Assembly (NCBI GenBank): GCA_019744775.1
Contig: JAIETZ010000013.1
Coordinates: forward strand, 1-64,000
From: Candidatus Obscuribacterales bacterium
GTDB lineage: Bacteria; Cyanobacteriota; Vampirovibrionia; Obscuribacterales; Obscuribacteraceae
Direction: 5' to 3'
Length of the DNA stretch: 64,000 bases
The notes under the pieces are model-generated. The model did not search any database. It had not been told where the DNA came from and worked only from the letters and a program-made list of their open reading frames with translations. A program made the translations under genes and the position numbers. Position 1 is the stretch's first letter, and the number at the start of each line of letters is the position of its first letter. Of this stretch, positions 10,697 through 47,212 are shown in pieces.

Positions 10697-12646
10697 ATGT
10701 CGAATGTTCAAACCCAGATTAGCGTCATTCTCCCCGATGGGTCCAAGAGAGAGCTAACCCCTGGGTCAACCGGTGCTGACCTGGCAAAGTCCATCGCCCA
10801 AGGGCTGTTTCGTAAGTCCGTTGGTCTAACAATAAATGGAGAGATTCGTGACCTCTATACGCCTTTAACTGATGGCGATACAGTCAAAATCCTCACACCG
10901 GACGATGCTGAATCCATTGAACTTCTTCGACACTCCACAGCTCACGTCATGGCGGAAGCTGTTCAGAAGATTTTCCCAGAGGCAAAAATTGCCATTGGTC
11001 CAACTATTGAAGACGGCTTCTACTACGACTTCGAAATTAAAGGTCATCCGCTAACTCCGGAAGACCTTGAAAAAATCGAAGCCGAGATGAAGCGTATTGC
11101 TTCGGAAGACCAGCGTCTTGTCCGCCATCAGATTTCTGATGTGGATAAGCAAATTGCTGAATTTAAGAGCCAAGGCGAGAAATTCAAGGCTGAGCTTCTT
11201 GAAGAGCACCGTGACCATTCGCCTACTATGTATTTGATGCAAGACAAAGATGGCAAAACCATTTGGAATGACCTTTGCCGCGGACCTCACCTGCCAAGCA
11301 CAAGCGCCATCAAAGCATTTAAATTACTTAAGGTTTCTGGCTCCTATTGGAGAGGCGACGAGAAGCGCGAACAGCTTCAGAGAATCTACGCCACTTGCTG
11401 GTGGAAGCAAAGCGATTTGGATGATTACTTGCACCGCTTGGAAGAAGCAGAAAAGCGTGACCACAGAAAATTGTCAAAGCAACTGGATCTCTTTTCGCAA
11501 CACGAAGAGGTTGGTCCCGGTCTAGTTTTCTGGCATCCAAATCTCGCCACCGTGCGTACCATCATTGAAGACTTCTGGCGCACTGAGCACAAGCGCCGTG
11601 GTTATCAATTTGTCTTTACGCCGCATATTGCCAGCGAAGACTTGTACAAAATAAGTGGACACTTGGAGTCATACGGCGAAAATATGTATTCGTCGATGGA
11701 CATTGATGGACTGCCGTATCGCGTCAAGCCAATGAATTGTCCAGGTCACATCATGATCTACAAGTCGCGTCTGCATAGTTATCGTGATCTGCCATTGCGT
11801 TTTGCAGAACTTGGTACTGTGTATCGCTATGAAAGATCAGGCGTCTTGCACGGCATGTTGCGCGTACGCGGATTTACCCAAGATGATTCGCACATCTTCT
11901 GCACACCGCAGCAACTCGAATCCGAAATCAATGGCATCCTCGATCTCATTGAGATGATGATGGATACTTTTGGTTATACCTACAAAGCCTATCTATCAAC
12001 TCGTCCGGAAAAATACATTGGTACCGACGAAGAGTGGACAATGGCGACTAATGCATTGGAAGCAGCGCTCAAATCCCGCGGTCGTGATTACGAAATTGAT
12101 GAAGGTGGCGGAGTATTCTACGCGCCGAAAATTGATATCAAACTCTACGATGCGATTGGTCGCGAATGGCAAGGACCGACTGTACAAGTCGATCTCAACT
12201 TACCGAGACGCTTCGATGTAACCTACATCGGAGAAGACGGCGAGCGCCATCAAGCAATCATGGTGCACCGCGCAGTATTGGGTTCGTTGGAGCGCTTTGT
12301 CGGCGGTCTCATCGAGCACTATGCCGGAGTCTTCCCGACTTGGCTGGCACCAACGCAAGTTGCCGTTCTGCCAATTTCCGACAGACACGAAGCATACGCC
12401 CGCGAATTGCACGATCAATTGCAAGCCCGCGACTTCCGCGTGAAGCTGGACGACCGCTCCGAACGCATCAACTACCGCATCCGGGAAGCTCAAGTAGAGC
12501 AAATCCCATACATGCTCGTAGTCGGTGACAAGGAACTCGAATCCAAATCCGTAGCCGTCCGCCACCGCAGAGACGGCGACCTCGGAACAATCCCCTTCAC
12601 CGAATTCGTCGAGCGCCTAACAAAAGAAGTCAACGAGCGGACATAA
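10697..12646 (+). CDS. thrS: Threonine-tRNA ligase
   Basis: Class II aminoacyl-tRNA synthetase. Order: TGS domain (1-65), tRNA SAD editing domain with HSTAHVMAEAVQKIFP (zinc-type editing H-x3-H) and the later C-RGPHLPSTS block, catalytic core with MNCPGHIMIYKS, RYERSGVLHGMLRVRGFTQDDSHIFC, and the C-terminal anticodon domain APTQVAVLPISD. 649 aa. Ribosome site AAGGAG at 10681-10686. The last 17 bases overlap the convergent heme gene. The 222 bases before it hold no gene or obvious T-box. Confidence 0.97.
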   Translation: MSNVQTQISVILPDGSKRELTPGSTGADLAKSIAQGLFRKSVGLTINGEIRDLYTPLTDGDTVKILTPDDAESIELLRHSTAHVMAEAVQKIFPEAKIAIGPTIEDGFYYDFEIKGHPLTPEDLEKIEAEMKRIASEDQRLVRHQISDVDKQIAEFKSQGEKFKAELLEEHRDHSPTMYLMQDKDGKTIWNDLCRGPHLPSTSAIKAFKLLKVSGSYWRGDEKREQLQRIYATCWWKQSDLDDYLHRLEEAEKRDHRKLSKQLDLFSQHEEVGPGLVFWHPNLATVRTIIEDFWRTEHKRRGYQFVFTPHIASEDLYKISGHLESYGENMYSSMDIDGLPYRVKPMNCPGHIMIYKSRLHSYRDLPLRFAELGTVYRYERSGVLHGMLRVRGFTQDDSHIFCTPQQLESEINGILDLIEMMMDTFGYTYKAYLSTRPEKYIGTDEEWTMATNALEAALKSRGRDYEIDEGGGVFYAPKIDIKLYDAIGREWQGPTVQVDLNLPRRFDVTYIGEDGERHQAIMVHRAVLGSLERFVGGLIEHYAGVFPTWLAPTQVAVLPISDRHEAYARELHDQLQARDFRVKLDDRSERINYRIREAQVEQIPYMLVVGDKELESKSVAVRHRRDGDLGTIPFTEFVERLTKEVNERT

Positions 12647-14087
12647 TTGGTCCTTGCCTTGTCGTTTCGAGCGAGACGCCGAAGGTAGCATCGGTAAGCA
12701 TTTTCATAATTGACTCGGCGGCGGCTTCGCCGCTGGAAACGCAGTTTGGAATTCCCGGACCCATAAGATAGTTCCCGGCTAATACAAGTCGTTTATGGGC
12801 AGCCACAGATTTTTGTATATTGTCGATGAGAGTCAAATGTCCCAAGCTGTATTGTGGCGCTGCGTGTTCATGACGAGTAAGTCTTATATGTATGGGTTCA
12901 GCAAAAATTTGCAAGTATTTTTTTAAATCCTCCTTGGCGCTCTTAACTAGATCGAGATCTTTAAGTGAATAGATATCTTTGTTCAAATAATTACCCATAA
13001 AAACGCGAATCACCACGGTTTCTTTGGGGGCCCGTCCGGCATACTTTTGACTGGCAAATGTACACGCGATAATATGACTCTTTTCTTTTGCCGATACGAC
13101 GAAACCGTAACCCTTTAATTTGGGAACGTCCGATTTTTTGTACACAAGATTGAGCACGACGGACTGTGCGTGAGTGATTTGCGACAGCTGTTTAGAAATC
13201 GTTGTATCAAAATTGGACAAAATTTGGCTTGCCTGATTGGACGAGGTCGCAATAATTAGTCCGTCAGCTTTAATAGATCCGCTATTTTTCGTCTCCACAA
13301 TAAATCCCATGGTGTCACTCTTGATTCCGCAAACCTCGGTATTGGTTCTGATTGCTGAGCCCAGCCTGGAAACAATTGTTTCGGAAAGGACAGCTAGTCC
13401 TCTGCTGAATGAAATGAAAGGACCCGTGCCGTCTTTTGAAGATCTCCTGGCCGACTTCATTAATCCGGAAATAACGCTACCATGGCGTTTTTCCAAATCC
13501 AGAAAGCGTGGCATGGTAGCTTTGAGACTTAACTTCTCTGGATCGCATCGGTAAATTCCGCCAACTAACGGTTGTACAACTCTTTCTAAAGCCTCTTTGC
13601 CAAAGCGACGACGAACAAACGCAGCTAAGGACTCATCATCAACTTCTTTCTTGGCAGGTAGGAATGTTTCCAGCGCCATTCGCAATTTGCCCAATGGTGA
13701 AAATAAGGTTGAGGCGAAAAACGCAAGGAAGTTTGTGGGAGCTAAAACAATGAAGCCTTGTGGTACGACATGTAATTTGCCATTCCAGGCAACATAAGTT
13801 CGGTTGTTTTGTTTTTCCGTCGCAATTACTTGATCTTCTAAACCGAGTCGGGTAATTAGGCTAAGTGCTATTGGCTTTTCTGTCAAAAGGGAATCCGGTC
13901 CTTCCTCCAGAATAAAATGTCCTTGGCGTATTGTCGAAATTGCTCCGCCACATCTATCTGATGCCTCTAGAACTGTTATCTTTAATGCAGGTTGGAGTTC
14001 GTGCAGTTTGAATGCTGCCGACAAACCGGATATGCCACCACCTATGATAACTACATGCGGGCTTTGCTTGTTGTTCGGAACTTCCAT
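12630..14087 (-). CDS. hemY: Protoporphyrinogen oxidase (HemY type)
   Basis: FAD enzyme oxidising protoporphyrinogen IX (or coproporphyrinogen III) in heme synthesis. FAD-binding VVIIGGGISGLSAAF near the N-terminus, then the GG motif region DRCGGAI, EEGPDSLL, PLVGGIYRCDPEKLS, and the C-terminal FAD-contact LAGNYLMGPGIPNCVSSGEAAA. About 485 aa. ATG 14087 puts the Rossmann motif near residue 11 as usual; a GTG at 14132 would add 15 residues. The palindrome at 14170-14187 lies 82 bases upstream, linking heme supply to the nitrate/NO genes. Coproporphyrinogen versus protoporphyrinogen specificity cannot be decided here. Confidence 0.92.
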   Translation of the reverse strand: MEVPNNKQSPHVVIIGGGISGLSAAFKLHELQPALKITVLEASDRCGGAISTIRQGHFILEEGPDSLLTEKPIALSLITRLGLEDQVIATEKQNNRTYVAWNGKLHVVPQGFIVLAPTNFLAFFASTLFSPLGKLRMALETFLPAKKEVDDESLAAFVRRRFGKEALERVVQPLVGGIYRCDPEKLSLKATMPRFLDLEKRHGSVISGLMKSARRSSKDGTGPFISFSRGLAVLSETIVSRLGSAIRTNTEVCGIKSDTMGFIVETKNSGSIKADGLIIATSSNQASQILSNFDTTISKQLSQITHAQSVVLNLVYKKSDVPKLKGYGFVVSAKEKSHIIACTFASQKYAGRAPKETVVIRVFMGNYLNKDIYSLKDLDLVKSAKEDLKKYLQIFAEPIHIRLTRHEHAAPQYSLGHLTLIDNIQKSVAAHKRLVLAGNYLMGPGIPNCVSSGEAAAESIMKMLTDATFGVSLETTRQGPIMSAR

Positions 14088-14169
14088 TATGTATTCAGAG
14101 ACAGGAAAAACTAATTCTGTATTATCGTGCACTGACTACATTTTCGGATCGCCCGAGCGAAGTACTCCG

Positions 14170-14187
14170 ATCATCCATTAGGATGAT
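14170..14187. promoter_or_regulatory. Operator-like palindrome A upstream of hemY
   Basis: ATCATCCATTAGGATGAT: perfect 7-bp inverted arms ATCATCC/GGATGAT around a 4-bp centre. Located between the response regulator gene and hemY. Same architecture as at 31069, 47141, 56622, 62476 and weaker sites elsewhere in the window. Confidence 0.6.
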
Positions 14188-14221
14188 TTCGGAATTAATA
14201 AACGTGCTCACGTTTGCCTAA

Positions 14222-14950
14222 TTAAACCAAACCGCTCCGCATAGCTTGAACTGCTGCTTGAGTTCGATCGTCTACCGCTAGTTTATTTAAAATATTACGG
14301 ACATGAGTCTTAGCTGTTGACAGAGAAACTATAAGCCGATCAGCTATTTCTTGATTGGACAAGCCCTCCACAATAAGCTTCAATACTTCCAATTCTCTAG
14401 ACGATAGTTGCTCCGGCAAAGAATTACCGGCAGTTGAAGATGGCTCTGTGTTCACCGGTGCTTCGGCTTTAGTAAATTCCCAGGCTTTTTCAGACTTTGT
14501 TTCTTGGGATAATCGATTTTTCAAAACTTTAGCCGCAATAGTGGTGTCAAGCCAGATGTCTCCTGAAGATACACTGCGAATTGCAGTGTACAGACGATCA
14601 GGTTGTACATCCTTTAGGCAATAGCCGCCGGCGCCTGCTGCTAATGAAGCTGCAATATCCTGTTCGTTGTCATGTGACGTAAGCATTATTATTTTGGCTT
14701 CCGGATTACTTACAAAAATGAGCTTGGAAGCCTCTATCCCATCCATTACTGGCATGCCTACATCCATTAGGACAACATCTGGCTTGATTGAGCTATAGGC
14801 TGTCACCGCTTCTTGCCCATTTGAAGCTTCACCAATCACCTTCAAATCGCTCGTTCGCTCTAGGACTGCCTTTATCCCGATGCGAGTCAGCAGATGATCT
14901 TCAACTAATAGAATCGTTATTTGGGTGGGCGTTTTCTCTTGATTGCTCAT
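14222..14950 (-). CDS. NarL/FixJ-type response regulator
   Basis: DNA-binding response regulator. Receiver domain 1-130 with acidic pocket VEDH (16-19), phosphorylation site D63 in KPDVVLMDVGMPVMDG, and the conserved Lys in CLKDVQ; C-terminal LuxR-type helix-turn-helix LSSRELEVLKLIVEGLSNQEIADRL...TAKTHVRNILNKL. 242 aa. Divergently transcribed from the globin-coupled histidine kinase with 52 bases between starts, so the two are almost certainly partners. A candidate regulator of the palindromic sites in this window, one of which lies just beyond its 3' end. Confidence 0.93.
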   Translation of the reverse strand: MSNQEKTPTQITILLVEDHLLTRIGIKAVLERTSDLKVIGEASNGQEAVTAYSSIKPDVVLMDVGMPVMDGIEASKLIFVSNPEAKIIMLTSHDNEQDIAASLAAGAGGYCLKDVQPDRLYTAIRSVSSGDIWLDTTIAAKVLKNRLSQETKSEKAWEFTKAEAPVNTEPSSTAGNSLPEQLSSRELEVLKLIVEGLSNQEIADRLIVSLSTAKTHVRNILNKLAVDDRTQAAVQAMRSGLV

Positions 14951-15002
14951 AATTCACCGGTCAACATCTAACAACAGAGTATTTTTGATTATTATATATT
15001 CT

Positions 15003-16610
15003 ATGACTGAAACGCCTAAGCCAAACTGGGAGAGCAAAGACGAAATCGAGTTGCGCAAGCGCTGGCTCGAATTCGGTTCTCAAGATGAAGAAGTACTTGC
15101 TGAACTTGATCCGTTCGTGTCAGGTCAAGCACAACAACTGATTGATTATGTATATCGACACTTTCTTTCGTTTCCGGAAACCTCCGGATTTTTTCCCGAT
15201 AAGGAAACGCTAGAGAGAGCGAAGTCCGCTCAAATTGCTTACTTCGATCGTCTGACAAAGGGAAGCTATGATGAGAATTACGTCAAGGATCGCTTGCGCG
15301 TTGGGTCAACACATTACCGCATTGACTTGGATCCTAAATGGTACTTGGGTGCATACAGCCGCGCTATGCAGTGGTTTTCAGATCGGCTGTTTGAGAAAAT
15401 GTCCCAGGAACCGGCAAAGCTTCTAAAAGCAATTTCTGCTTTCAGAAAAATAGTTTTCTTTGATATGGGCTTGGCTATCGAAACCTATATCCGGGCAAAA
15501 GAGACGGCAATACGGTCCCATATGGAGGCACTACATGAATTAGCCACGGAAAAGAAAGTTACAAAAAGCATTCTTGAGAATGCTCCCATTGGTATTGTGA
15601 GACTTAGCAGTGAACTTGCCTGTCTCGAGTCCAATCAAAAATTCCTCGAAATGGCGGGCATTGGTCGGAGTGAAAAAATAATGGGTCGATCACTTTCCTC
15701 CTTCGCTCCTAGTTTGCCAATACAAGTCTTTGAACAGGTTCTTTTAACTGGAAATGCTTTTGCTGCTACTGCGGAGCCCCTTATCTTTAATTCCGATATA
15801 AAAGCTGTTCCTGATTATTTTGACTGGGCTGTTTGGCCTATCAAAGACAATATTGGTCGGACAGTCGGACTGGTCGCTAAATTTACTAACGCCAGTGATC
15901 GCATTATGGTACAGCAGCAACGTGAAGATTTCGTAGCGACGCTAACACATGATTTAAAAACACCGATACTCGCTGCCAATCGTGCGGTAAAACTTCTTAT
16001 GGATGGCGACTTTGGTTCTGTATCCGAGGAGCAGACGAAGATTCTGCAAACAATTCATGATAGTAATTCGTCGCTTTACACACTTGTTCTAACTTTGCTA
16101 GATGTTTATAGATATGAGTCCGGTTCAAAGGAGCTAAATATTGCACCGGCTGACTTGACTGTCACGATAAGTCATTTAGCCGATGAATTAAGATCACTTG
16201 CTCAAACACAATCAATCAAACTCACGGTGGTTTTGCCAAAGACGTCTCTAAAAGTCATGTGTGATGAAGAGGAAATCAGGCGTGTAATTCAAAACCTTGT
16301 GGACAATGCTCTCAAATATACGCCAATCGGTGGAACGATTACCATCTCCATGCAGCAATCCAACGAAGAAACTCTTATAGAGGTCAAGGATACGGGCAAA
16401 GGCATAGCCGACGAAGATCAGCCGAAATTATTTCAAAGGTTCTGGCAAGCAGCAGGCAGCGGTCGTTATTATGCTGGTACAGGTTTAGGACTTTTTCTCT
16501 GCCGCAAAATCGTAGAAAGGCATAATGGACGAATTTGGTGCGAAAGCAAACCGGGTCAAGGATCTACTTTCCGATTTACTATTAGTCACATGCAAGTTCG
16601 GGCTAGCTGA
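15003..16610 (+). CDS. Globin-coupled sensor histidine kinase
   Basis: Likely heme-based O2/NO sensor kinase. Residues about 20-180 are a protoglobin (globin-coupled sensor) domain with the proximal-histidine block RVGSTHYRIDLDPKWYLGAYS, H104 being the predicted heme ligand. Residues about 185-305 are PAS-like (LENAPIGIVRLSSELACLESN). HisKA follows with phospho-acceptor H316 in ATLTHDLKTP, and HATPase_c with NLVDNALKY, DTGKGI, and GTGLGLFLCRKIVE. No membrane segments. ATG 15003 (MTETPKPNWE) is chosen; the upstream in-frame extension overlaps the divergent regulator gene. Heme binding is predicted, not shown. Confidence 0.9.
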   Translation: MTETPKPNWESKDEIELRKRWLEFGSQDEEVLAELDPFVSGQAQQLIDYVYRHFLSFPETSGFFPDKETLERAKSAQIAYFDRLTKGSYDENYVKDRLRVGSTHYRIDLDPKWYLGAYSRAMQWFSDRLFEKMSQEPAKLLKAISAFRKIVFFDMGLAIETYIRAKETAIRSHMEALHELATEKKVTKSILENAPIGIVRLSSELACLESNQKFLEMAGIGRSEKIMGRSLSSFAPSLPIQVFEQVLLTGNAFAATAEPLIFNSDIKAVPDYFDWAVWPIKDNIGRTVGLVAKFTNASDRIMVQQQREDFVATLTHDLKTPILAANRAVKLLMDGDFGSVSEEQTKILQTIHDSNSSLYTLVLTLLDVYRYESGSKELNIAPADLTVTISHLADELRSLAQTQSIKLTVVLPKTSLKVMCDEEEIRRVIQNLVDNALKYTPIGGTITISMQQSNEETLIEVKDTGKGIADEDQPKLFQRFWQAAGSGRYYAGTGLGLFLCRKIVERHNGRIWCESKPGQGSTFRFTISHMQVRAS

Positions 16611-20172: not shown

Positions 20173-22368
20173 CTAGTTTCCTTTTGATCTGAGCTGGGCA
20201 TTGGCGATGGACTTGCGTTTGCAGGGCGGACAGATTTCCTGCCAAGTCTTGGCGGTTCCGGACCCTGATAGTGAGTAATCAAAACCTAATTGGGGCAAGA
20301 TCGTATTAAGATCATCTATGTGCATGCGCGATGCGAAGCGTTCTCCACAACGTCCGCAAAAAGCACCAGGATCGCGTGAGCCGACATCTTGATATAGTTT
20401 CACACCTAGCTGAGCTGGACGCTGAAAAATATGAAAGAACTTGCCGAAGGGTAAATATATGAGTGCAGACACGACGGTTATTGCGTGAATGATCGAAAGA
20501 AAGTCATAGAAAATTCCTTCGAAATAGAGGTTCGACACAGTTAATGCTATTCCGGTAAGGGATATGGCAAAAAGCATGATCAATGGCACAAAGTCCATTG
20601 CGAAAGACTGAACAGCTTGAGCTCCCTGGTCGCGTAGACGACGAAAAAGCGATAGCGCGACGCCTGCTATAACCATTACTGCGGCAATATCCAGGATATG
20701 AAAAGTAATCCAGCCGACTAAACTGTGCACAGGAAATGACATGGTTGGAAAACCAAACAGATAAGGCACATATTGAGTTGCATCATTCGGCAATGTTCCG
20801 AAATAGATCCAGCCAAACACAAGCGGGAATGTGATTGCGCCTGCAAGCATACAGCCCCAAGCAAGCATCATATGTGTAAGCCATCGCATCTTAGAGCGCC
20901 GCGCTATAAATGTCTGTGCAAATATATGCGTGAAAGAAACTCTTGCCAGTTTTACTGATGCCGAAAAGCCTTCTTGTGCTAAAAGCTGCCAGCCGCGTCT
21001 CCAATACATTTTTGTTGGCGGTTTTTGAAGCCAAACAGAGTAGTGATAGGTGACACCCCAGGTGGCAAATATGGTAGCGAATGTGTAAATTACAAGTGCC
21101 GGGTCGAAGTTCTGTAGATTTCTCGACCCAACAACTATGGCAGCAAGTAAAACACCGGTCACAATAGTCGACACAAAGCCAGCGCGTAATCTATCGGCAG
21201 TGCGTACAAGATGTGGTGGCAAAGAAAGATCATGGAGGTTTTGTTGAGAGACAAATACTTTTTCGTTAGCTAGCCACAGCACAAAAGAGAGAAAAGACAA
21301 GAGCGCAAAACACGGCCATATCATTCCTAAATATTGCTTGCTTAGTCCTAAAAGAAGCGGCGGAAAAAATCCGCCCAGTCCTCCGAATGCGCCCACCAAG
21401 CCACCGACAGTGGCGACTTGCTTTGGGAATATTTCCGGCACTAGTTTAAAAACTGCACCATTACCCAAGCCAAGAAAGAGAGCACAAGAAAGTGCCCCTA
21501 CTGTAAAGGGCACCATTTGATTCCAGGCAAGCAGCGGTGCAAAAAGAGTAACTCCTAAAAATACAGCAGAGAGCACTTTGGCTCCCCCAATCCTGTCCGC
21601 CAGCCAGCCTCCTAAAGGACGAACGCCAGTGGCCACAAGAACAAAGCCGGCTGCTCGAAAGCCGGCATCGCTTGCCGTCAAAGCAAATTCTTCGCGCAAG
21701 AGCGACGGCAAGTAAATTGCAAAGGCAATGAATCCACCAAAGGTAAGGAAGTAAAACAGCGAAAGGAGCCAGCAGGACTTTTGAGTAATAAGTACATTCA
21801 GCATGTCGCTGAAAGAAACGGGTTTTACTTTCTGAGATGAATTGCTGGACATAAGGAAAAAGATAATTGCCCATATACCTAACAAACCAGCCACGGAATA
21901 GAATGCGTATTGCCAACCAAAACGATCTGCAATAAGAGGGGACAGAAATACTACGGCTGATTGTCCGATATTGCCGAGTCCATAAAGTCCAAGTGCACCG
22001 CCTTGTTTGTCAGGTGCTGTCCAGCCTGAGACGTAACCGACTCCTGCTGCAAATGAAGAGCCCGCTAGTCCAAGAAAAAATGCACCTACAAGGATTAGCG
22101 GCCATGAAGCCAAGGATGGCAGGGTGGCCGCTACCGCAGCCGACAAAAGAAGCAAAACCGTAAAAACATGCCGTGCGCCGAATCTATCCGTGAGCATCCC
22201 TACTGGTATACGGGCAAGCGAACCCAGCAATACTGGCACGGCAACAAGAGTTGCCGTCTGCGTGCTTGTCAAAGAGAGAAGTGCTTTGAAAGTAGGAGCC
22301 AGCCCACTTATTAATCCCCACGCCATAAAGCAAAGGGCAAACGAGATAGTTGCAATGAGTAAGTGCAA
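20173..22368 (-). CDS. NarK-type nitrate/nitrite transporter fused to a NarI/HdrE-like cytochrome b domain
   Basis: 731 aa, two modules. Residues 1 to about 375 are an MFS nitrate/nitrite transporter: WGLISGLAPTFKALLSLT, RIPVGMLTDRFGARHVF, GVGYVSGWTAPDKQGGALGLYGLGNIGQS, GGLVGAFGGLGGFFPPLLLG. Residues about 390-660 add further membrane helices with several His (HMMLAWGCMLAGAITFP, HSLVGWITFHILD, LSIIHAITVV), the pattern of respiratory cytochrome b subunits such as NarI or HdrE. The tail has CGRCGERF and CPPCKRKS, a zinc-ribbon or cluster-like motif. The fusion couples nitrate uptake and quinol oxidation on one polypeptide; immediately upstream of the molybdoenzyme gene. Confidence 0.88.
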   Translation of the reverse strand: MHLLIATISFALCFMAWGLISGLAPTFKALLSLTSTQTATLVAVPVLLGSLARIPVGMLTDRFGARHVFTVLLLLSAAVAATLPSLASWPLILVGAFFLGLAGSSFAAGVGYVSGWTAPDKQGGALGLYGLGNIGQSAVVFLSPLIADRFGWQYAFYSVAGLLGIWAIIFFLMSSNSSQKVKPVSFSDMLNVLITQKSCWLLSLFYFLTFGGFIAFAIYLPSLLREEFALTASDAGFRAAGFVLVATGVRPLGGWLADRIGGAKVLSAVFLGVTLFAPLLAWNQMVPFTVGALSCALFLGLGNGAVFKLVPEIFPKQVATVGGLVGAFGGLGGFFPPLLLGLSKQYLGMIWPCFALLSFLSFVLWLANEKVFVSQQNLHDLSLPPHLVRTADRLRAGFVSTIVTGVLLAAIVVGSRNLQNFDPALVIYTFATIFATWGVTYHYSVWLQKPPTKMYWRRGWQLLAQEGFSASVKLARVSFTHIFAQTFIARRSKMRWLTHMMLAWGCMLAGAITFPLVFGWIYFGTLPNDATQYVPYLFGFPTMSFPVHSLVGWITFHILDIAAVMVIAGVALSLFRRLRDQGAQAVQSFAMDFVPLIMLFAISLTGIALTVSNLYFEGIFYDFLSIIHAITVVSALIYLPFGKFFHIFQRPAQLGVKLYQDVGSRDPGAFCGRCGERFASRMHIDDLNTILPQLGFDYSLSGSGTAKTWQEICPPCKRKSIANAQLRSKGN

Positions 22369-22455: not shown

Positions 22456-25119
22456 TCAAGCTGTCCGAGGGAGCAACCGACAAACCACAATAGATGCAAG
22501 AAACGAAAGCCCTGATGCAAATAAGACAATTAGCCAATCAGAAAGATCAAGGTGCGTAGTTTTCAATACAGCTTCAATGGGCCGCACGTAAATTGCTATA
22601 AACATCAAAGCATAAGAGATGAGCATGTTTACCATAAAAACCGGATTGAGATGTTTCCATCCTCCACTCATAAACGATCTATCGGAAAATGCCCAGAGCC
22701 ATGCTTGGAATAGAAGCGCGCAAGAAAGCGTTGCAAAGCTTATTGTGGTCATTTTAAAGGAGTTTCCTAAGAAGTGTCCTTGGACAATAACCGCTGTAAG
22801 TGTTCCTGCCGCCACCAAAAATGACCTGATAAGAATTTGCATATACTCAGATCTGCCAAGAATTGAGTCAGTGGTTTTGCGCGGACTAAGTTTCATGACC
22901 ATCTTGTGAGACGGCAAAAGAGAAATCCCAAGGGCGGGAAATACATGCATGATTAAGTTCAGCCACAATAGCTGAAGAGGTAAAAGCGGCAACCCTGTAT
23001 CAAATAAGACAGCTGCTGCCACGGTCGCTACGGCTGCCAGCGAAGCTGTTAATAGATAGGCTATCGCATTTTGAATATTGGCATAGATCACACGTCCTTG
23101 TTCTATCGCTTTCACAATCGAACTGAAATTATCATCTGTAATTACAATCTTGGCTGACTCGCAGGCAAGATCGGCACCACCTTTACCCATGGCTACGCCA
23201 ATGTCGGACTGTCTTAGTGCAGGGGCATCATTAACACCATCCCCGGTCATTGCCACTACTGAACCGTCTGCCTGAAGAGCTCGTACCACTTTCAATTTCA
23301 TTTCAGGACTAACGCGCGCCAGTATGTTTGTTGTGCGTAACTTTGTCGCTAAATCATTCTCGTTTAGTTGGCAAATCTCTGCACCACTTAAAACAGAATC
23401 GTCGTCAATAGAGTCAATAATACCTAAGTCATCCCCAATGGATTTAGCTGTTTGAGCTTGATCGCCAGTCAGCATTACGACCCTTATACCGGCAGCTTTG
23501 CATTGCAAAATTGCTTCCTTGACCCCTTTCTTTGCTCTGTCTTGCATGCCGATTAAACCAAGAAATGTCAAATCGGACTCAATTTCTCCATCGACTGGGT
23601 CGTTTATCGATAGTTTTTTGTTAGCAATAGCAAGAACGCGTAGACCTTTTTTAGCCATTTCGAAATTGTTTTTGAGAATAGAGTTGCGCTCAGCATCATT
23701 GAGTTCGTTAATTCCATTTTCTTTCTGTATAAACTTGCATTGTTTCAAGACGGATTCTGGTGATCCCTTGGTTAGACAAATCAGTCCACCTTGTGGGACT
23801 TGATTAATGGTGGTCATACGCTTGCGTGTTAAATCAAAGGGCAACTCATCCACACGTGGATACGAAGCGGTTAACTGCGCATGATTCAGCCCAGCCTTAG
23901 CTGCTACTACAAGTAGCGCCCCCTCAGTTGGATCTCCATGTATATGCCAATCTTCTTTACCGGCATGGTCTTCTAAAAAGGCATCATTACACACAGCGGC
24001 CGTTATTAGAATCTGGTGTAAGTTGTTTTCCTCTTGGACATCTATTTTGTTTTGACGATATTGAAAATGTCCAACAGGTATATAGCCCTCACCAGATACA
24101 GTAAATTGTTTGCCATCAGAAAATATTTCAGTAACTTGCATGCGATTTTCAGTGAGTGTGCCTGTCTTATCGCTGCAAATGACAGCACAGCAACCAAGCG
24201 TTTCTACTGAGGACAATTGCCTGATCAACACGGCGCTTTTAACCATGCGTTGCGTGCCAACAGCCAGGGCGAGAGTAGCTACGACCGCCAAGCCTTCCGG
24301 AATTGCTGCCACGGCGAGAGCTATCGAGGTTTGTGTCATTTTTACAATGGGCTCATTGTGCAAGATGCCGATCACTAAAAGGACAAGACAAAGTATTAGC
24401 GTCATCCAGCATAGCTGTTTGCCTAATCCTTCCAATTCAAGTTCAAGTGGTGTTCGCCTACCGGATATTTCGGTCAATAATTTACCCAGCTTACCTAACC
24501 TTGATTGTAAGGCTGTGGCAGTAACAATAGCCCAGGCTTGTCCATCAAGAACAAGAGTACCTTGATAGACAATATCATTACCCTCATCTGTCGATGGCAA
24601 CGATTTAAAAACAGCCACACTTTCTCCAGTCAAGGCTGATTCATCCACATTGATACCGCAAGTCTTAAACAGCTTCACGTCTGCAGGGACTCTTACCCCA
24701 GCTTCGAGACTAACAACGTCGCCAGGAACGAGTTCATGTGTAGGTAAGTCAATTTCCTCTCCATTGCGCCTGGCTCTAATCTTCGGTGAAGAGAGCTTCC
24801 TAAGTGTCTGAAGAGAAACCTTCGCTCTAAATTCTGTAATAAACCCGACAAACGCGTTCACGGCTACCGCAGTCAAAATTGCCAGCGATTGCAAATGTTC
24901 TGAAAATATATACGAGATTACTGCAGCCACAAGCAAAAGAACAATAACGCTTGATTGAAACTGGCGAGTCAATAAAAACAGCCAACCGTCCTCAGCAGTC
25001 GTAATGCTGATCTCATTTGGTCCCCATTGCGCTAGTCTTTTTGAGACTTGTTCGTTGCTTAATCCGCTGTTGAAATTTGTGTCGCTCAAAATGGGTTCAA
25101 CTGTAAAATTGGCTTGCAT
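22456..25119 (-). CDS. P-type cation-transporting ATPase (P2 type)
   Basis: 887 aa, about ten membrane helices. N-terminal cation ATPase domain (GLSNEQVSKRLAQWGPNEI), E1-E2 domain with VDESALTGESVAVFK, PEGL ion-site motif in AAIPEGLAVVATLALAVGTQRM, phosphorylation motif CSDKTGTLT, KGSPESVL nucleotide site, hinge MTGDGVNDAPALRQSDIG and a C-terminal four-helix domain. The PEGL motif and C-terminal domain fit Ca2+ (SERCA/PMCA-like) or Na+-type pumps rather than heavy-metal pumps. It precedes the NarK-fusion gene by 87 bases on the same strand, so may head that transcript. Confidence 0.92.
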   Translation of the reverse strand: MQANFTVEPILSDTNFNSGLSNEQVSKRLAQWGPNEISITTAEDGWLFLLTRQFQSSVIVLLLVAAVISYIFSEHLQSLAILTAVAVNAFVGFITEFRAKVSLQTLRKLSSPKIRARRNGEEIDLPTHELVPGDVVSLEAGVRVPADVKLFKTCGINVDESALTGESVAVFKSLPSTDEGNDIVYQGTLVLDGQAWAIVTATALQSRLGKLGKLLTEISGRRTPLELELEGLGKQLCWMTLILCLVLLVIGILHNEPIVKMTQTSIALAVAAIPEGLAVVATLALAVGTQRMVKSAVLIRQLSSVETLGCCAVICSDKTGTLTENRMQVTEIFSDGKQFTVSGEGYIPVGHFQYRQNKIDVQEENNLHQILITAAVCNDAFLEDHAGKEDWHIHGDPTEGALLVVAAKAGLNHAQLTASYPRVDELPFDLTRKRMTTINQVPQGGLICLTKGSPESVLKQCKFIQKENGINELNDAERNSILKNNFEMAKKGLRVLAIANKKLSINDPVDGEIESDLTFLGLIGMQDRAKKGVKEAILQCKAAGIRVVMLTGDQAQTAKSIGDDLGIIDSIDDDSVLSGAEICQLNENDLATKLRTTNILARVSPEMKLKVVRALQADGSVVAMTGDGVNDAPALRQSDIGVAMGKGGADLACESAKIVITDDNFSSIVKAIEQGRVIYANIQNAIAYLLTASLAAVATVAAAVLFDTGLPLLPLQLLWLNLIMHVFPALGISLLPSHKMVMKLSPRKTTDSILGRSEYMQILIRSFLVAAGTLTAVIVQGHFLGNSFKMTTISFATLSCALLFQAWLWAFSDRSFMSGGWKHLNPVFMVNMLISYALMFIAIYVRPIEAVLKTTHLDLSDWLIVLFASGLSFLASIVVCRLLPRTA

Positions 25120-25237: not shown

Positions 25238-25255
25238 ACCATTCGAAAGGAGGAT
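25238..25255. promoter_or_regulatory. Degenerate palindrome A upstream of the P-type ATPase
   Basis: ACCATTCGAAAGGAGGAT matches ATCATCC-N4-GGATGAT at 11 of 14 arm positions. It lies 118 bases before the ATPase start and 91 bases before the divergent gene at 25347. Confidence 0.35.
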
Positions 25256-27019: not shown

Positions 27020-27119
27020 CAAGTACCGGACAGAAACGCAAGAGACAAGATGGACAAGAAACCTCCAGTGAAGCATCGCTTTAACATCCTTGGTCCCCAA
27101 TGCGCCTGTCCGGTACTTG
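27020..27119 (+). other. 100-base inverted-repeat structure upstream of the radical SAM gene
   Basis: CAAGTACCGGACAG (27020-27033) is the exact reverse complement of CTGTCCGGTACTTG (27106-27119). Between them, GGACAAG can pair with CTTGGTCC with one bulge and AAGC with GCTT, so the transcript could fold as a nested stem ending 24 bases before the ATG at 27144. It may be a structured 5' leader or a remnant of a small mobile element. Confidence 0.5.
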
Positions 27120-27143
27120 CCGATTTTGCAAAGCAAATTCAAC

Positions 27144-28238
27144 ATGACCAATTTGGCACATAGACCGGTTATAGATTTTGACCAATCACCATTTTTAGTG
27201 TTATGGGAACTTACAAGAGCATGTTTGCTTGCCTGTCGCCACTGTCGAGCCCAAGCGATTCGTCAACGCAATGTCAATGAATTGACTTTTGCTGAATGCA
27301 TAAAAGTTTTGGATCAGCTTGAGGAATTTGGCCGCCCGCTAATTGTTTTTACCGGAGGGGATCCAGCCCAGCGTGCGGATCTTTATGACCTTATCAAAGA
27401 GGCCGGCAGGCGCGGATTCAAATCAGCAGTAACGCCTAGCGCCACGCCTGTAATGACTCAAGACGTGGTTGAGAAGATGGCTGATGCCGGTGTAGATAGG
27501 CTGGCTATTAGTATTGACGGTGCTGATAGTCAAACTCACGATGCCTTTCGTAGGGTCAGAGGTTCTTTTGATTGGAGTAAATCCATTATTGACTGGGCGC
27601 ACAAGGCGAAGCTTCCCGTCCAAATCAATACGACGATTTGCCGCCATAATCTACACCAATTCGACAAATTTGCTAACCTGGCTGAAGAACTCGGTGCTGT
27701 TCTTTGGAGCGTATTCTTTTTGGTGCCGACAGGGCGCGCCAGCCAAGATATGCAAATTAACGCTTCAGAAGCTGAAGATGTTCTCCAGCGTATGGCACAG
27801 CTTTGCCGGACAGCTTCTTATGACGTTAAGGCTACTGCCGCGCCACATTTTAGGCGGGTTTTGATTGAGCAATATTCGGACAAGAATAATGCTCCGGATT
27901 CAGCAGCCATAAATAAGCTAAATTCCAAATTGAAGTTAGGAGCCTTGCGCTCGTATCAATCAGTCAATGACGGCAGGGGCCTGATTTTTATTTCTCATAC
28001 AGGCGACATTTTGCCTAGTGGGTTTTTGCCTCTTGCTGCGGGCAATGTGCGAAATGATTCCATAGTGTCTGTCTATCGGAAGAGCGAACTTTTTAAAAGC
28101 CTGCGCAATCCGGAATTACTTAAAGGGAAATGCGGCACTTGCTCTTATCGTCAAGTTTGTGGCGGCTCACGTGCGCGCGCCTTTGCTGAGACGGGCGATT
28201 ATCTGGCTGAAGATAGTCTTTGTTCACTAGGGATTTAA
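27144..28238 (+). CDS. Radical SAM/SPASM protein (NirJ/AhbD-like)
   Basis: 364 aa. Radical SAM cluster C27-x3-C31-x2-C34 in WELTRACLLACRHCRAQA; SPASM-type C-terminal cysteines in CGTCSYRQVCGGSRARAFAETGDYLAEDSLC. The WELTRAC start and SGFLPLAAGNVR region resemble the group containing heme-pathway proteins NirJ and AhbD and the TIGR04053-type proteins. A role in heme or tetrapyrrole modification would fit a nitrate/NO island with hemY, but peptide modification is equally possible. ATG 27144 is preferred to the TTG at 27090 because the upstream segment falls in the inverted repeat. Ends overlapping the convergent CMD gene by 12 bases. Confidence 0.85.
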   Translation: MTNLAHRPVIDFDQSPFLVLWELTRACLLACRHCRAQAIRQRNVNELTFAECIKVLDQLEEFGRPLIVFTGGDPAQRADLYDLIKEAGRRGFKSAVTPSATPVMTQDVVEKMADAGVDRLAISIDGADSQTHDAFRRVRGSFDWSKSIIDWAHKAKLPVQINTTICRHNLHQFDKFANLAEELGAVLWSVFFLVPTGRASQDMQINASEAEDVLQRMAQLCRTASYDVKATAAPHFRRVLIEQYSDKNNAPDSAAINKLNSKLKLGALRSYQSVNDGRGLIFISHTGDILPSGFLPLAAGNVRNDSIVSVYRKSELFKSLRNPELLKGKCGTCSYRQVCGGSRARAFAETGDYLAEDSLCSLGI

Positions 28239-28621: not shown

Positions 28622-29662
28622 TCAGTGCTGGAAAATTGTCAGCTTTTTTACTATCCGGCACAACAAGCCAATGAATGTTATAGACCAGGCTAGTAAGGCC
28701 AGGTAAATAAAATACCGTGGTATGGTCATAAGAAACGTCAGACCAGTCACCTGCGCTAGTTGGAATGTGGCAGCCGTATACATTCCGAGAGGAAATACAA
28801 GTCCCCAATAAAGGGGGTCATACGTCAAAGGAAAGCGTTTCCCGATATGTCGCCATACGGCTAAAGTGATAAGCATTGGTATCCACCAGGTGGCAGTTGC
28901 CCAGAAAAACAAAGTGAAGCCTTCCAGGAACGGCATTAAGCCACTAAGCAGTGGACTTTTGTCGGCATTGGTAATTAGTCTGGTGCCGGCAAGCGTCGTT
29001 ATGGCAACAGCTCCCATATTTATCCAGTAAGGCGGCGCCAGATCAGAAGGCAAAAATTTGAAAAACGTATAGCGATAAAAGATTAGCGAAATCATCCAAA
29101 TATACAGCATGCCGCCGCATAACCACATAGCCAGAGTGAAGAACAAAATTTCTTGTTCAAATGGTTTCAAGCTTGAGGCGACAAGTCCGCCCAGATTAGA
29201 GACAGCCTGTGTTGCAACTACAGCTAAGAGCCAACCGCCGTTTATCCCTTCGGCAAGAGAAGGCTTATTTTCCTTAACTGTCAAAATCGTAAAAATAGCA
29301 TACGTCAAACTAAGCCAGAAGAACGTTCCTAGAAACCAGAAAATAATTGCAGTTGGATAATCATGAAAAAGCACAACAAATTGACTGCCTAAGACACAAA
29401 TGGCAGCAACAATGCTGAAAAAGCCGACGCATCGATTGTGGTCCGTAAGATCAAAAACAAATGATTTCGTATAACAAAAAAGTCTAAGCGCCGTAAGCAA
29501 ACAGAGGATAGCAAAGAGCACTAAATTAAGTACAAACATGGAAATAGCAATTGCACGCATGGCAAGAAATTGGCAGGCAACAGAAACTATTCCTGTCGCC
29601 ATAACCAGGGCAAAATAGGCAGGATGCAATTTTTCGATTTCGTCGTAAATCGTATTTTTCAT
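28622..29662 (-). CDS. TDT/SLAC1-family transporter (TehA-like)
   Basis: 346 aa with about ten membrane helices. Starts KLHPAYFALVMATGIVSVACQF, the signature of the TehA/SLAC1/malic acid transporter family (HPxxFxxVMATGI). Family members are anion channels or transporters for tellurite, dicarboxylates, sulfite or nitrate/chloride. In this island an anion such as nitrate or nitrite is a reasonable but unproven substrate. Divergent from narK. Confidence 0.85.
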   Translation of the reverse strand: MKNTIYDEIEKLHPAYFALVMATGIVSVACQFLAMRAIAISMFVLNLVLFAILCLLTALRLFCYTKSFVFDLTDHNRCVGFFSIVAAICVLGSQFVVLFHDYPTAIIFWFLGTFFWLSLTYAIFTILTVKENKPSLAEGINGGWLLAVVATQAVSNLGGLVASSLKPFEQEILFFTLAMWLCGGMLYIWMISLIFYRYTFFKFLPSDLAPPYWINMGAVAITTLAGTRLITNADKSPLLSGLMPFLEGFTLFFWATATWWIPMLITLAVWRHIGKRFPLTYDPLYWGLVFPLGMYTAATFQLAQVTGLTFLMTIPRYFIYLALLAWSITFIGLLCRIVKKLTIFQH

Positions 29663-29744: not shown

Positions 29745-29762
29745 ATCAGCCGAAAGGCTGAG
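29745..29762. promoter_or_regulatory. Palindrome A variant upstream of narK
   Basis: ATCAGCCGAAAGGCTGAG, equal to the ATCATCC-N4-GGATGAT site with matching changes in both arms (TCAGCC/GGCTGA). It is also able to form an RNA hairpin with a GAAA loop inside GTTTAG/CTAAAC arms, so a terminator or RNA role is an alternative. Confidence 0.4.
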
Positions 29763-29897: not shown

Positions 29898-31085
29898 ATG
29901 AAGACACCAGAACAGAAAGCTCTTTTGTTGGGCACCCTGGCTTTTACAGTATCCTTTGCAATCTGGGGATTATTGGCTGGCTTGATGCCGATACTAAAAA
30001 AAGAACTTGCACTTAGTGCCGGGCAGGCTAGCTTATTGGTGGCAATACCGGTAATTCTGGGTTCACTGGGAAGGATTCCCATAGGAATTTTGGCCGACCG
30101 CTTTGGCGGAAGAAAGGTTTTTTCGGCGATTTTATTGTTCATGATTTTGCCGGCGGTTGTGCTGGGTTTCGTGCATTCTTACGAAGCATTTCTCATTTGT
30201 GGGTTGTTCTTGGGTGTTGCCGGCACATCATTTGCTGTAGGTGTTAGTTTTGTCTCGCGCTGGTTTCCAGCTTCCAAGCAAGGATCGGCACTAGGAATTT
30301 ATGGTGCCGGCAATATTGGACAGTCAATTGCTGTTTTTGGCGCACCTGCCTTAGCCTCCGCCCTTGGTGGCATGCAATGGGCTGTTTGGGCTTTTAGTGT
30401 GGTGGCATTGCTATTTGCAATTTACTTCCTCATCAATGCTGAAGATGCTCCTTGGAAAGAACCGCCAAAGAGTTTAATGAATTCGCTTGGGCTCTTTTTT
30501 ACTAGACCGCGCTGCTGGCTATTGAGCATGTTCTACTTTCAAACATTTGGCGGCTTTGTGGCCCTTTCCATTTACATGCCGATGCTGTTGAAAGACATAT
30601 TTGACTTGCCAATAACTGATGCGGGTTTCCGCACAGGCATGTTCGTGTTGCTGGCAACAGGCGCTAGACCGATTGGTGGTTTCCTGTCCGACAAGTTTGG
30701 CGGCGGCGCCATACTGAGCATCTGTTATGCAGGACTTTTACCTTGCGCCTTTATGCTCACAAGTTCGGATCTTGGTTACTTTACAGTCGGCGCTTTAGGG
30801 GCGGCATTTTTGGTTGGTCTTGGCAATGGAGGGGTATTTCGGCTGGTGCCTGAATATTTCCCCAAAGATACCGGTTCGGTTACAGGTTTGGTTGGCGCAG
30901 CCGGTGGCATGGGCGGCTTTTTTCCTCCGCTTGTCCTGGGATTTTGTAAGGATCACTTCGGTACTTTCAATCCTGGTTTTTACTTGCTCGCTCTGTTTAG
31001 TCTTATTTGTTGGCTGGCTGTATATTTCACAATTCTCAAAACAAAAAAGGCATTTGAGCCGGTTCTCAATCATCCTTTAGGATGA
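29898..31085 (+). CDS. narK: Nitrate/nitrite transporter NarK
   Basis: 395 aa MFS protein with 12 helices. Nitrate-transporter motifs are present: AIWGLLAGLMPILKKELALS, RIPIGILADRFGGRKVF, GVSFVSRWFPASKQGSALGIYGAGNIGQSI and GLVGAAGGMGGFFPPLVLGFCKD. Strongly similar in order to the N-terminal half of the fusion protein at 20173-22368. Placed directly before the nar operon, so it probably brings in nitrate and/or removes nitrite for respiration. A palindrome-A site overlaps its last codons. Confidence 0.95.
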   Translation: MKTPEQKALLLGTLAFTVSFAIWGLLAGLMPILKKELALSAGQASLLVAIPVILGSLGRIPIGILADRFGGRKVFSAILLFMILPAVVLGFVHSYEAFLICGLFLGVAGTSFAVGVSFVSRWFPASKQGSALGIYGAGNIGQSIAVFGAPALASALGGMQWAVWAFSVVALLFAIYFLINAEDAPWKEPPKSLMNSLGLFFTRPRCWLLSMFYFQTFGGFVALSIYMPMLLKDIFDLPITDAGFRTGMFVLLATGARPIGGFLSDKFGGGAILSICYAGLLPCAFMLTSSDLGYFTVGALGAAFLVGLGNGGVFRLVPEYFPKDTGSVTGLVGAAGGMGGFFPPLVLGFCKDHFGTFNPGFYLLALFSLICWLAVYFTILKTKKAFEPVLNHPLG

Positions 31086-31086
31086 T
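31069..31086. promoter_or_regulatory. Palindrome A, perfect copy, upstream of the nar operon
   Basis: ATCATCCTTTAGGATGAT with perfect 7-bp arms, overlapping the narK stop and 131 bases before the start of the cytochrome c gene that opens the nar operon. Palindrome B at 31183-31198 lies between it and the gene. Confidence 0.6.
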
Positions 31087-40740: not shown

Positions 40741-42048
40741 CTATTTGTCTGCACAATTCTCCATTGCCACCAGAGGCGGCTTGAGAAATGTCACTAACAT
40801 ATTGGCAGCGAAAATGACCACTCCGGTAAGTTCAAGCGTGGCAGAAATTGGCAACAATAACCACGCCGAAGAGGCGTAATTCTCATATGCCGATATCTCC
40901 GACAAAACTCTCAAGAAACAACCAATATTGATAAGAACAAGAGAAAGAAACATGAGCCCCATGCTATAGAGCGCTTTCTTCCCTAAAAAGGCCGGTAGAA
41001 TGCGTGGTCCGATAGAAAATACCATCGTCATCAAGAAGCCGACTGTAACAGCGTGCCTTGCTGAACCGGTTATTCCTGAAGATTCCGGTTGCAAGGCTGC
41101 CCAGATATTAAGCAAAGAAGAAACTAATAGCCAAACATAGGATATACGTATGAACGAGGGGAAAGTCTTGTGTACGCCTTGTGTTTTTGCTTTGTCAATG
41201 GCAGGTTCGAAAATGCGCAAGGCAAGAGCAACCAAAAATGCCGCGCCGCAAAGTAGTGATGCTCCTATTAGCGAATCGCCGAGAAGGTAAGAGATGACTC
41301 CGACAATAGCAACTATCAAAGCGGCAAGTAAAAAGTTGCTTCTTAAGGGTTTTAAGCTTAAAAACACGGGAATCCAGTGAGCCGAAAAACCCCAGGCGAT
41401 CATCACTGGAAAACCCCAAATAGAAAGCACCAGAAATCGGCCGTTAAAATCCATTGGAAACTGAGGCGCGGCTCCCCATAGAGCAATTTCTACACTTTCA
41501 AATAGGTTTGCGCACATCGCAATAACCAAACCAACGGTGCCGGCAATAACAAGAATTGCCCAGGTCTCGACTTTCTGTTTCGATTCTTGCCCAAATCTAT
41601 GCCCTTGTATTGAACAGGCAAGAAATAACAACACTGCGCTCAATTCCAAGAGAGCAGACACAGGAAAGAGAAACCGCCACTGCCACTGATAAAAACCAGC
41701 AAACCAGTGCAGGGCAACACCAACAGTCCATAATGCCCAAATGAGCCAACCTATGGCAAATGAGGCTTTGGAAATACGGCGCAAATTAGGAATGGAATAA
41801 AAACCAATGCCCAGGATAAAGCTGCCTATCCAGCCAAAAACCTGCGCATGACCGTGAGCCTGGATCAAGGCAACAGGTATATTTGCTGTTGAATGGCTGC
41901 TACTTATGCTAAATAAATTCCAAACACCTAAAAAAGTGCCGGGAAATATCATGAATAAAATGCCCGTGATTAGAAAGGCTTCTAGAAGAAGAATCAATTG
42001 CCTTTCACGGGCAATTGTCGGCATGGAGGAAATCTTTGACTCAGCCAT
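40741..42048 (-). CDS. nnrS: NnrS family heme-copper membrane protein
   Basis: 435 aa, about twelve helices. AHGHAQVFGWIGSFILGIGFYSIP and ARHAVTVGFLMTMVFSIGPRILPAF are NnrS hallmarks with the conserved His residues. NnrS proteins protect cells during NO stress and accompany denitrification genes. Convergent with the nar operon and divergent from the HxlR gene; a palindrome-A-like site lies 55 bases before its start, the same distance as before norZ. Confidence 0.88.
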   Translation of the reverse strand: MAESKISSMPTIARERQLILLLEAFLITGILFMIFPGTFLGVWNLFSISSSHSTANIPVALIQAHGHAQVFGWIGSFILGIGFYSIPNLRRISKASFAIGWLIWALWTVGVALHWFAGFYQWQWRFLFPVSALLELSAVLLFLACSIQGHRFGQESKQKVETWAILVIAGTVGLVIAMCANLFESVEIALWGAAPQFPMDFNGRFLVLSIWGFPVMIAWGFSAHWIPVFLSLKPLRSNFLLAALIVAIVGVISYLLGDSLIGASLLCGAAFLVALALRIFEPAIDKAKTQGVHKTFPSFIRISYVWLLVSSLLNIWAALQPESSGITGSARHAVTVGFLMTMVFSIGPRILPAFLGKKALYSMGLMFLSLVLINIGCFLRVLSEISAYENYASSAWLLLPISATLELTGVVIFAANMLVTFLKPPLVAMENCADK

Positions 42049-42103: not shown

Positions 42104-42121
42104 ATCAACCCGGCGGAGGAT
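42104..42121. promoter_or_regulatory. Palindrome A-like site between nnrS and hxlR
   Basis: ATCAACCCGGCGGAGGAT, matching ATCATCC-N4-GGATGAT at 12 of 14 arm positions with one change in each arm. It lies 55 bases upstream of nnrS and 96 upstream of the HxlR gene. A single TTACC half-site of palindrome B (42056-42060) is also near. Confidence 0.45.
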
Positions 42122-42217: not shown

Positions 42218-42607
42218 ATGGAAGATGCTCATATAGATCCTTTGCAGTGTCCGATTACGTTTGTTCTGGATATCTTAAGTCCTAAGTGGACAATAGAGAT
42301 CTTGCGAGAACTCTTCACTCAACCAACGCGTACCAGGCAATTTCTCAATCTCATTCCTGGATTAAGCATGAAAAGTCTGAGAGAAAGACTGAAGGTTTTG
42401 GAAATCGAAGGTATTCTCATTCGCACCGTCTATGAAGATTCACCGCTTCGCGTGGAATACAGCCTCACGACCAAGGGCAGAGAATTGTATTCAGCGCTTA
42501 TGAGTCTCAAACGATTAGGTGAAGCCTGGCTTAACAAAAAATGCCAATGCCCATTTGATCTCGAGCTGTCTCAAGACGATATTGTTTGTCCTAACAAGAA
42601 CTCTTAA
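42218..42607 (+). CDS. HxlR-family transcriptional regulator
   Basis: 129 aa winged-helix protein. DPLQCPITFVLDILSPKWTIEILRELFTQPTRTRQFLNLIPGLSMKSLRERLKVLEIEGILIRTVYEDSPLRVEYSLTTKGREL is the complete HxlR pattern with the N-terminal Cys (C11) often used for redox or electrophile sensing; the tail adds CQC and another Cys. Ends 4 bases into the convergent lyase gene. A plausible reader of palindrome B, since members of this family bind short inverted repeats, but nothing here proves it. Confidence 0.92.
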   Translation: MEDAHIDPLQCPITFVLDILSPKWTIEILRELFTQPTRTRQFLNLIPGLSMKSLRERLKVLEIEGILIRTVYEDSPLRVEYSLTTKGRELYSALMSLKRLGEAWLNKKCQCPFDLELSQDDIVCPNKNS

Positions 42608-45479: not shown

Positions 45480-45548
45480 TATGCCTTAACCTTCTTCTCG
45501 GACATAATTTGTCATATCCGGCGCGGCTTATAATCGTCCAAACGGTGG

Positions 45549-45564
45549 ATTACCTTTAGGTAAC
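45549..45564. promoter_or_regulatory. Palindrome B upstream of the lyase pair
   Basis: ATTACCTTTAGGTAAC, arms TTACC/GGTAA perfect, 70 bases before the tryptophanase-like start and between it and the flavoprotein gene. Third clear copy of the element. Confidence 0.5.
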
Positions 45565-47020: not shown

Positions 47021-47140
47021 TACTACTATCTCTATTTCTACCCTGCACACAAATTAAGAACAGACAACTCTAGCACTCTTGCTCAGGCTGGCAACTAGGC
47101 ACTAAATAGTGGCCATAAGCTCATCCTGGCGATTATCAAT

Positions 47141-47158
47141 ATCATCCGTAAGGATGAT
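47141..47158. promoter_or_regulatory. Palindrome A, perfect copy, in the divergent cluster promoter
   Basis: ATCATCCGTAAGGATGAT with perfect arms, 54 bases upstream of the ketosynthase ATG (47213) and 120 bases upstream of the flavoprotein ATG (47020). Ties this cluster to the nitrate/NO genes. Confidence 0.6.
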
Positions 47159-47212
47159 ATGTGGCACCTTCTCTGCATGACAAAATTGGTTTGTTTAGCG
47201 CTTGAGTTATTT

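Follow-up and report, generated by a model that had tools for sequence, protein, structure and literature searches.

A globin-coupled histidine kinase, its divergent NarL-type regulator and a recurrent palindromic operator at a nitrate and nitric oxide gene island of Candidatus Obscuribacterales

A protoglobin-coupled histidine kinase and a divergently encoded NarL-type response regulator lie beside a nitrate and nitric oxide (NO) gene island of a Candidatus Obscuribacterales bacterium, and comparative evidence supports the view that they form a gas-sensing pair that would act through a palindrome next to them, palindrome A. We assign a probability of about 80% to the full reading, in which globin kinase, regulator and operator constitute a DosR-like regulon for low oxygen and NO. 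The analysed stretch of DNA, hereafter the window, comprises 64,000 nt (GCA_019744775.1, contig JAIETZ010000013.1, positions 1-64,000, forward strand). Named relatives belong to Candidatus Obscuribacterales (Melainabacteria), non-photosynthetic relatives of cyanobacteria. Nitrate respiration has to date been attributed to this lineage on the basis of genome sequences (PMC4040986).

Results

Sensor kinase and response regulator

The kinase carries the feature that defines globin-coupled sensors, a Protoglobin domain (PF11563, residues 12-167, 9e-41), followed by HisKA (PF00512, residues 306-374, 4.5e-10) and HATPase_c (PF02518, residues 421-528, 4e-33), the latter two above cutoff. The HisKA and HATPase transmitter is intact, with a predicted phospho-acceptor H316 in the motif THDLKTP. 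Residues ~195-300 gave no Pfam match; in the AlphaFold2 model (mean pLDDT 87.7) they adopt a PAS fold, for which Foldseek returned many PAS domains, including the FAD-PAS of NifL, and a long signalling helix (residues 137-193) joins the globin to this PAS. Neither Pfam nor Foldseek gave a GAF or HisKA_3 match in the kinase, which is predicted from its sequence to be soluble. A start at TTG 14943, listed in an earlier note on this DNA, is less likely, as it would overlap the start codon of the regulator.

That note had described a protoglobin-coupled histidine kinase with a divergent NarL-type partner, and the domain matches of both proteins, together with the globin fold, bear this out (Table 1). 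It had further placed H104 at the proximal position of the protoglobin. This is indeed the residue that aligns with HemAT residue 123, which we take to be the proximal heme ligand, while Y51 aligns with HemAT residue 70, presumably the distal tyrosine. Both were invariant in 15 of 15 aligned sequences. Foldseek matched the modelled globin part to HemAT and, with a TM-score on target of 0.92 (1.4 A), to the AfGcHK globin. The word phosphorelay used in the note had to be given up, because the kinase showed neither a receiver nor an HPt domain; the pair has the make-up of an ordinary two-component system.

If the globin no longer bound gas, or mainly read redox state while the PAS possibly sensed through a flavin, the pair would be a redox or energy sensor. 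The match of the PAS part to the FAD-PAS of NifL, one among many PAS domains, points in this direction, as does the response of AfGcHK to the redox state of its heme (PMC8697598). However, the invariance of H104 and Y51 among aligned relatives and the agreement of the modelled globin fold with heme-bound AfGcHK and HemAT speak against this, and we consider a redox sensor unlikely.

The regulator scored 159 and 141 bits against LiaR/VraR, 128 bits against NarL and 102 bits against DevR among PDB sequences, its relation to DevR being judged by these match scores. It remained below the NarL equivalog cutoff (NF007935, 159.9 bits versus 250). The genome encodes nine GerE-type proteins, so that a sister regulator could bind some of the sites described below. 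HisKA_3 kinases are the usual partners of NarL-type regulators; here, a HisKA (PF00512) kinase is teamed with one. In one genus, further close regulator orthologues (61-64% identity) were placed apart from the globin kinase (Table 1).

A recurrent operator around the kinase

Palindrome A occurs far beyond chance and belongs to a recurrent operator with the putative consensus ATCATCC-N4-GGATGAT. Palindrome A itself, ATCATCCATTAGGATGAT, has perfect 7-bp arms and a 4-bp spacer, ATTA, that is not palindromic, which confirms for the arms the earlier description of the palindrome as perfect. The hemY gene adjoins the regulator gene; the centre of palindrome A is 46 bp from its GTG start at 14132 and ~91 bp from a likelier ATG at 14087. 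A second inverted repeat, AAACGTG-CT-CACGTTT, lies beside palindrome A at 14200-14215.

Allowing up to three mismatches, the window contained 14 matches to the consensus, whereas 100 shuffles gave 2.5 on average and 7 at most. Genome-wide counts were obtained by pattern searches. The whole genome contained 23 sites with at most two mismatches, versus 3 for the reversed pattern. Five sites had at most one mismatch, of which four are in the window and the fifth ~20 kb from a paralogous pair elsewhere in the genome. In 50 genomes belonging to this family, 183 sites with at most one mismatch were found, versus 4 for the control. Similarly, 35 kinase neighbourhoods held 49 sites; ten control palindromes gave 0-3 each. 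When the 20-kb surroundings of the kinase in relatives were scanned and all 6-bp inverted repeats ranked without supervision, TCATCC-N4-GGATGA came out on top. Near the kinase in 20 other genomes, 14 sites were observed where 0.30 were expected (47-fold the genome-wide density, P 3e-19).

Sites were denser in genomes with a detected globin kinase than in those without (0.68 versus 0.33 per Mb, P 0.016), a difference partly confounded by assembly completeness. Ten of the 35 neighbourhoods had no site at up to two mismatches, and two genomes with the kinase (G014, G032) had none at up to one. Conversely, G038 and G050, both incomplete assemblies, had 4 and 3 sites and no detected kinase or close orthologue. 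In the second family of the order the pattern stood at background level. The recognition helix of its regulator is somewhat different, with TVKSHVRNILSKL in place of TAKTHVRNILNKL. No operator is proposed for this family, whose leading palindromes are AT-rich and look like chance.

The palindrome might be the operator of another regulator, of Crp/FNR type, HxlR type (42218) or another NarL type, with the globin pair a mere neighbour. FNR-type factors are the classical controllers of denitrification genes, the genome has one HTH_Crp_2 protein above cutoff besides its nine GerE proteins, and the HxlR gene lies within the island. Yet the 47-fold enrichment and the top unsupervised rank were both obtained around the globin kinase, and HxlR relatives occurred in only 4 of the 35 neighbourhoods. 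For Crp/FNR, the single HTH_Crp_2 protein speaks against ownership, as does the half-site ATCATCC, which is unlike the TTGAT of FNR. Control by a different regulator thus seems improbable to us.

Conservation and duplication of the pair

As far as sequence comparison can tell, the kinase/regulator pair is conserved almost throughout the order. The protoglobin protein was found in 43 of 53 genomes of the order, including 21 of the 22 of good quality, and the regulator was divergent and upstream of the kinase in all 26 loci where both were legible. The trees of the two proteins were largely congruent. In the rest of the phylum, 2 of 244 sampled genomes gave weaker matches. Outside the order, the sensor half is closest to globin-coupled proteins of Beta- and Gammaproteobacteria (30-40% identity). 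These were discarded as parallel kinase systems, since the readable ones are mostly GGDEF/EAL proteins, and a simple motif screen recognised no LuxR-type regulator beside them.

The paralogous pair lies on contig C4, where the regulator is 77% and the globin-PAS half 71% identical to the window pair. As read from sequence, its surroundings include genes for universal stress proteins (Usp), a hydrogenase-like cluster, a P-type ATPase and an alcohol dehydrogenase. The neighbourhoods of the pair in relatives are alike, with Usp genes in 30, P-type ATPases in 14 and a hydrogenase-like subunit in 12 of 35, whereas hemY or narG occurred in none of the 35. In both trees, the C4 copy groups with its same-genus orthologue, and the window copy, on a longer branch, splits off just before them. 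On the simplest reading, the ancestral place is that of the C4 copy, and the window copy probably arose by duplication and was moved beside the NO/nitrate genes. The order-wide home of the pair is a universal-stress-protein island.

The window pair could also be a degenerating duplicate, with the C4 pair doing the regulating. Its early branching and longer branches would fit, as would the failure to find the window copy in two incomplete same-genus genomes. Against this, the frames of the window pair are open, its domains and heme-pocket residues are intact, and the window holds 4 of the 5 best sites of the genome. We regard decay of the window pair as quite improbable.

Position of the sites and putative targets

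All 15 independent perfect sites lay between genes, a result whose P value was calculated for an assumed coding share of 85%. The median distance from site centre to start codon was ~97 bp, and some sites are in divergent promoter regions. A role of the palindromes as RNA hairpins, such as transcription terminators, is very improbable: the sites at 14170 and 31069 do lie at or just past the stop codons of upstream genes, but the former lacks a T-run pattern, the half-site letters are conserved beyond what pairing alone would explain, and the sites cluster before start codons and occur in divergent promoter regions.

The better sites in the window are intergenic (Table 1), preceding hemY, the cytochrome c/nar genes, nnrS/hxlR, nitronate monooxygenase/KAS III, moaA and the rubredoxin-ScdA-hemerythrin gene. 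The cytochrome c gene is followed by narG-like (32007), narH-like (35651) and narJ-like (37150) genes, identities that were read from the ORF sequences. The HxlR label was taken from a clustered relative. Members of the rubredoxin-ScdA_N-hemerythrin family have sites in other genomes of the order as well, and relatives of the tryptophanase-like genes in G022 and G024 have perfect sites upstream. No good site was found in the 52-bp intergenic region between kinase and regulator.

Most transcription units of the island have an operator or operator-like site upstream, and sites are concentrated around the kinase and regulator. The earlier proposal that the pair controls the NO/nitrate island through palindrome A is favoured by this comparative evidence, but the regulon appears wider than the island.

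Table 1. Features of the kinase/regulator locus and matches to ATCATCC-N4-GGATGAT in the window, with regulator orthologues from other genomes.
Feature	Position	Strand	Evidence or context
Globin-coupled sensor histidine kinase	15003-16610	+	535 aa from ATG 15003; Pfam domains
NarL/LuxR-type response regulator	14222-14950	-	242 aa; Response_reg (PF00072) and GerE (PF00196) above cutoff
hemY, protoporphyrinogen oxidase (putative target)	12630-14132	-	TIGR00562, 313 bits vs cutoff 97.85; operator upstream
Operator, palindrome A (ATCATCC-ATTA-GGATGAT)	14170-14187		Perfect arms; between regulator and hemY
Operator, 0 mismatches	31069-31086		Centre 129 bp before cytochrome c gene (31206)
Operator, 0 mismatches	47141-47158		Between nitronate monooxygenase-like (45572-47050 -) and KAS III-like (47159-48469 +)
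Operator, 1 mismatch	56622-56639		Between moaA (56741 +) and conserved 133-aa protein (56120-56521 -)
Operator, 2 mismatches	42104-42121		Between nnrS (40741-42048 -) and HxlR regulator (42218 +)
Operator, 2 mismatches	62476-62493		Upstream of rubredoxin-ScdA_N-hemerythrin (ScdA-like repair) gene (61451-62407 -)
Operator-like, 2 mismatches	51965-51982		At norB 3' end, upstream of TPR protein (50809-51861 -)
Weaker operator-like, 3 mismatches	54288-54305		Upstream of NorB-type nitric oxide reductase (51937-54231 -)
Weaker operator-like, 3 mismatches	29745-29762		Between SLAC1-type channel (28622-29662 -) and narK-like (29898 +)
Weaker operator-like, 3 mismatches	45533-45550		Upstream of tryptophanase-like gene (44058-45479 -)
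Weaker operator-like, 3 mismatches	25238-25255		Between cation P-type ATPase-like (22456-25119 -) and ORF 25347 (+)
Second regulator orthologues	G040:C1:1694441, G041:C320, G043:C111, G045:C54, G046:C114, G047:C285		Other genomes; apart from globin kinase

The conserved ~133-aa protein, which has no Pfam match, repeatedly adjoins the operator and is a putative, uncharacterised member of the regulon. Its cluster has 8 members, one from a duplicate locus; related ORFs occur in L036, L037, L060, L172, L179 and L186, and relatives were present in 11 of the 35 kinase neighbourhoods.

Some further features of the island were observed. The tryptophanase-like genes stand in tandem (42604-44061 and 44058-45479, both -). 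A radical SAM/SPASM protein of the TIGR04053 family (27090-28238, +; 444 bits versus a cutoff of 395) is kin to the heme enzymes AhbD and NirJ. In a NarK-type transporter (20176-22368, -), next to a NasC-like nitrate reductase, the C-terminal half leads into another membrane region, which is weakly similar to QmoC/TcuB, and a tail rich in Cys; the protein may be a transporter-redox fusion.

Discussion

Comparison with known systems

The kinase most resembles AfGcHK of Anaeromyxobacter, likewise a protoglobin sensor on a soluble histidine kinase and the top structural match of the globin domain. The proximal His99 and distal Tyr45 of AfGcHK (PMC8697598) follow the same pattern as H104 and Y51. 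The globins share only ~24% identity, however, and AfGcHK is described as globin plus kinase, whereas the window kinase has a PAS in between. In Myxococcus, the NmpRSTU system, with an AfGcHK-homologous kinase, governs an oxygen-utilisation regulon that includes Usp, P-type ATPase, heme synthesis and hemerythrin genes (PMC11841059). Its output is the NtrC-like NmpR, in contrast to the NarL-type regulator with a defined palindromic operator in the window. The globin-coupled diguanylate cyclases and phosphodiesterases of Beta- and Gammaproteobacteria are alike in the sensor half, but most of the readable ones have GGDEF, often with EAL, as outputs rather than kinases.

The closest parallel in logic is offered by DosS/DosT-DosR (DevR) of Mycobacterium and OsdK-OsdR of Streptomyces, in which a heme-based gas-sensing kinase acts on a NarL-family regulator and palindromic operators. 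There, as in Obscuribacterales, operators cluster around the pair's own Usp-rich locus, and palindromic sites near the regulator at usp and at nitrate/hypoxia genes, a DosR-type feature, were found here too. OsdR sites lie in the promoters of usp, alcohol dehydrogenase, pyruvate phosphate dikinase and protoporphyrinogen oxidase genes, and expression of Nar2 is lower in an osdR mutant (PMC5069765). The kinds of targets overlap with those in Obscuribacterales, where sites were found near usp, ppdk, cytochrome c/nar and hemY.

Nevertheless, the pair does not belong to the DosR family, from which it departs not only in sensor and kinase core but also in operator sequence and best-scoring relative. 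DosS and DosT have a GAF-heme sensor and a HisKA_3 core, whereas the window kinase combines protoglobin, PAS and HisKA. For the regulator, VraR and NarL give better scores than DevR, and ATCATCC-N4-GGATGAT is unlike the OsdR consensus AGGGCCGATCGGCCCT (PMC5069765), which is of the GGG...CCC type of DosR and OsdR. NarX/NarL shares with the window a NarL-type regulator beside nitrate-respiration genes. Unlike NarX, the window kinase has no transmembrane or periplasmic nitrate-sensing part, carries a globin sensor, and has HisKA instead of HisKA_3; the NarL operator differs from the palindrome as well.

Proposed circuit

We propose that H104 anchors heme in the soluble kinase and that Y51, on the distal side, serves to read O2 and/or NO. 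The signal would travel along the long helix and through the PAS to the HisKA/HATPase core, which would autophosphorylate on H316 and pass the phosphate to the divergently encoded regulator. Phosphorylated regulator dimers would then occupy ATCATCC-N4-GGATGAT ~40-150 bp upstream of start codons. Within the island, the targets would be genes for nitrate respiration, NO reduction and detoxification, molybdenum cofactor and heme; elsewhere, together with the paralogous pair, they would comprise universal stress proteins, P-type ATPases and hydrogenase.

With respect to the sign of control, we infer that the O2-free or NO-bound kinase is most likely the active form and that the regulator is an activator. 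AfGcHK shows the opposite, as its active kinase is the O2-bound form (PMC8697598). Hence, either the kinase is inverted here, or the phosphorylated regulator represses in air.

A broader proposal, on which we are evenly divided, is that Obscuribacterales independently built a DosR-like dormancy and hypoxia-NO regulon from different parts, and that a genus-level duplication of the pair left both copies reading one operator, one in the universal-stress/hydrogenase island and the other in the NO/nitrate island. If so, a single regulon would be served by two gas sensors of different tuning, much like DosS and DosT.

Significance

Our literature search found no paper joining Obscuribacter with such a histidine-kinase study and none linking protoglobin, histidine kinase and NarL, within a limited collection in which absence is no proof of novelty. 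Globin-coupled kinases are a small group with poorly defined target genes; in this case, a sensor, a regulator, an operator and a target list were all obtained from sequence alone. If our reading is correct, the pair would be an example of a HisKA-type kinase with a NarL-type partner, and nitrate and NO metabolism in the Obscuribacterales lineage would gain a named control circuit. It would also mean that these non-photosynthetic relatives of cyanobacteria possess a convergent counterpart of the DosR regulon.
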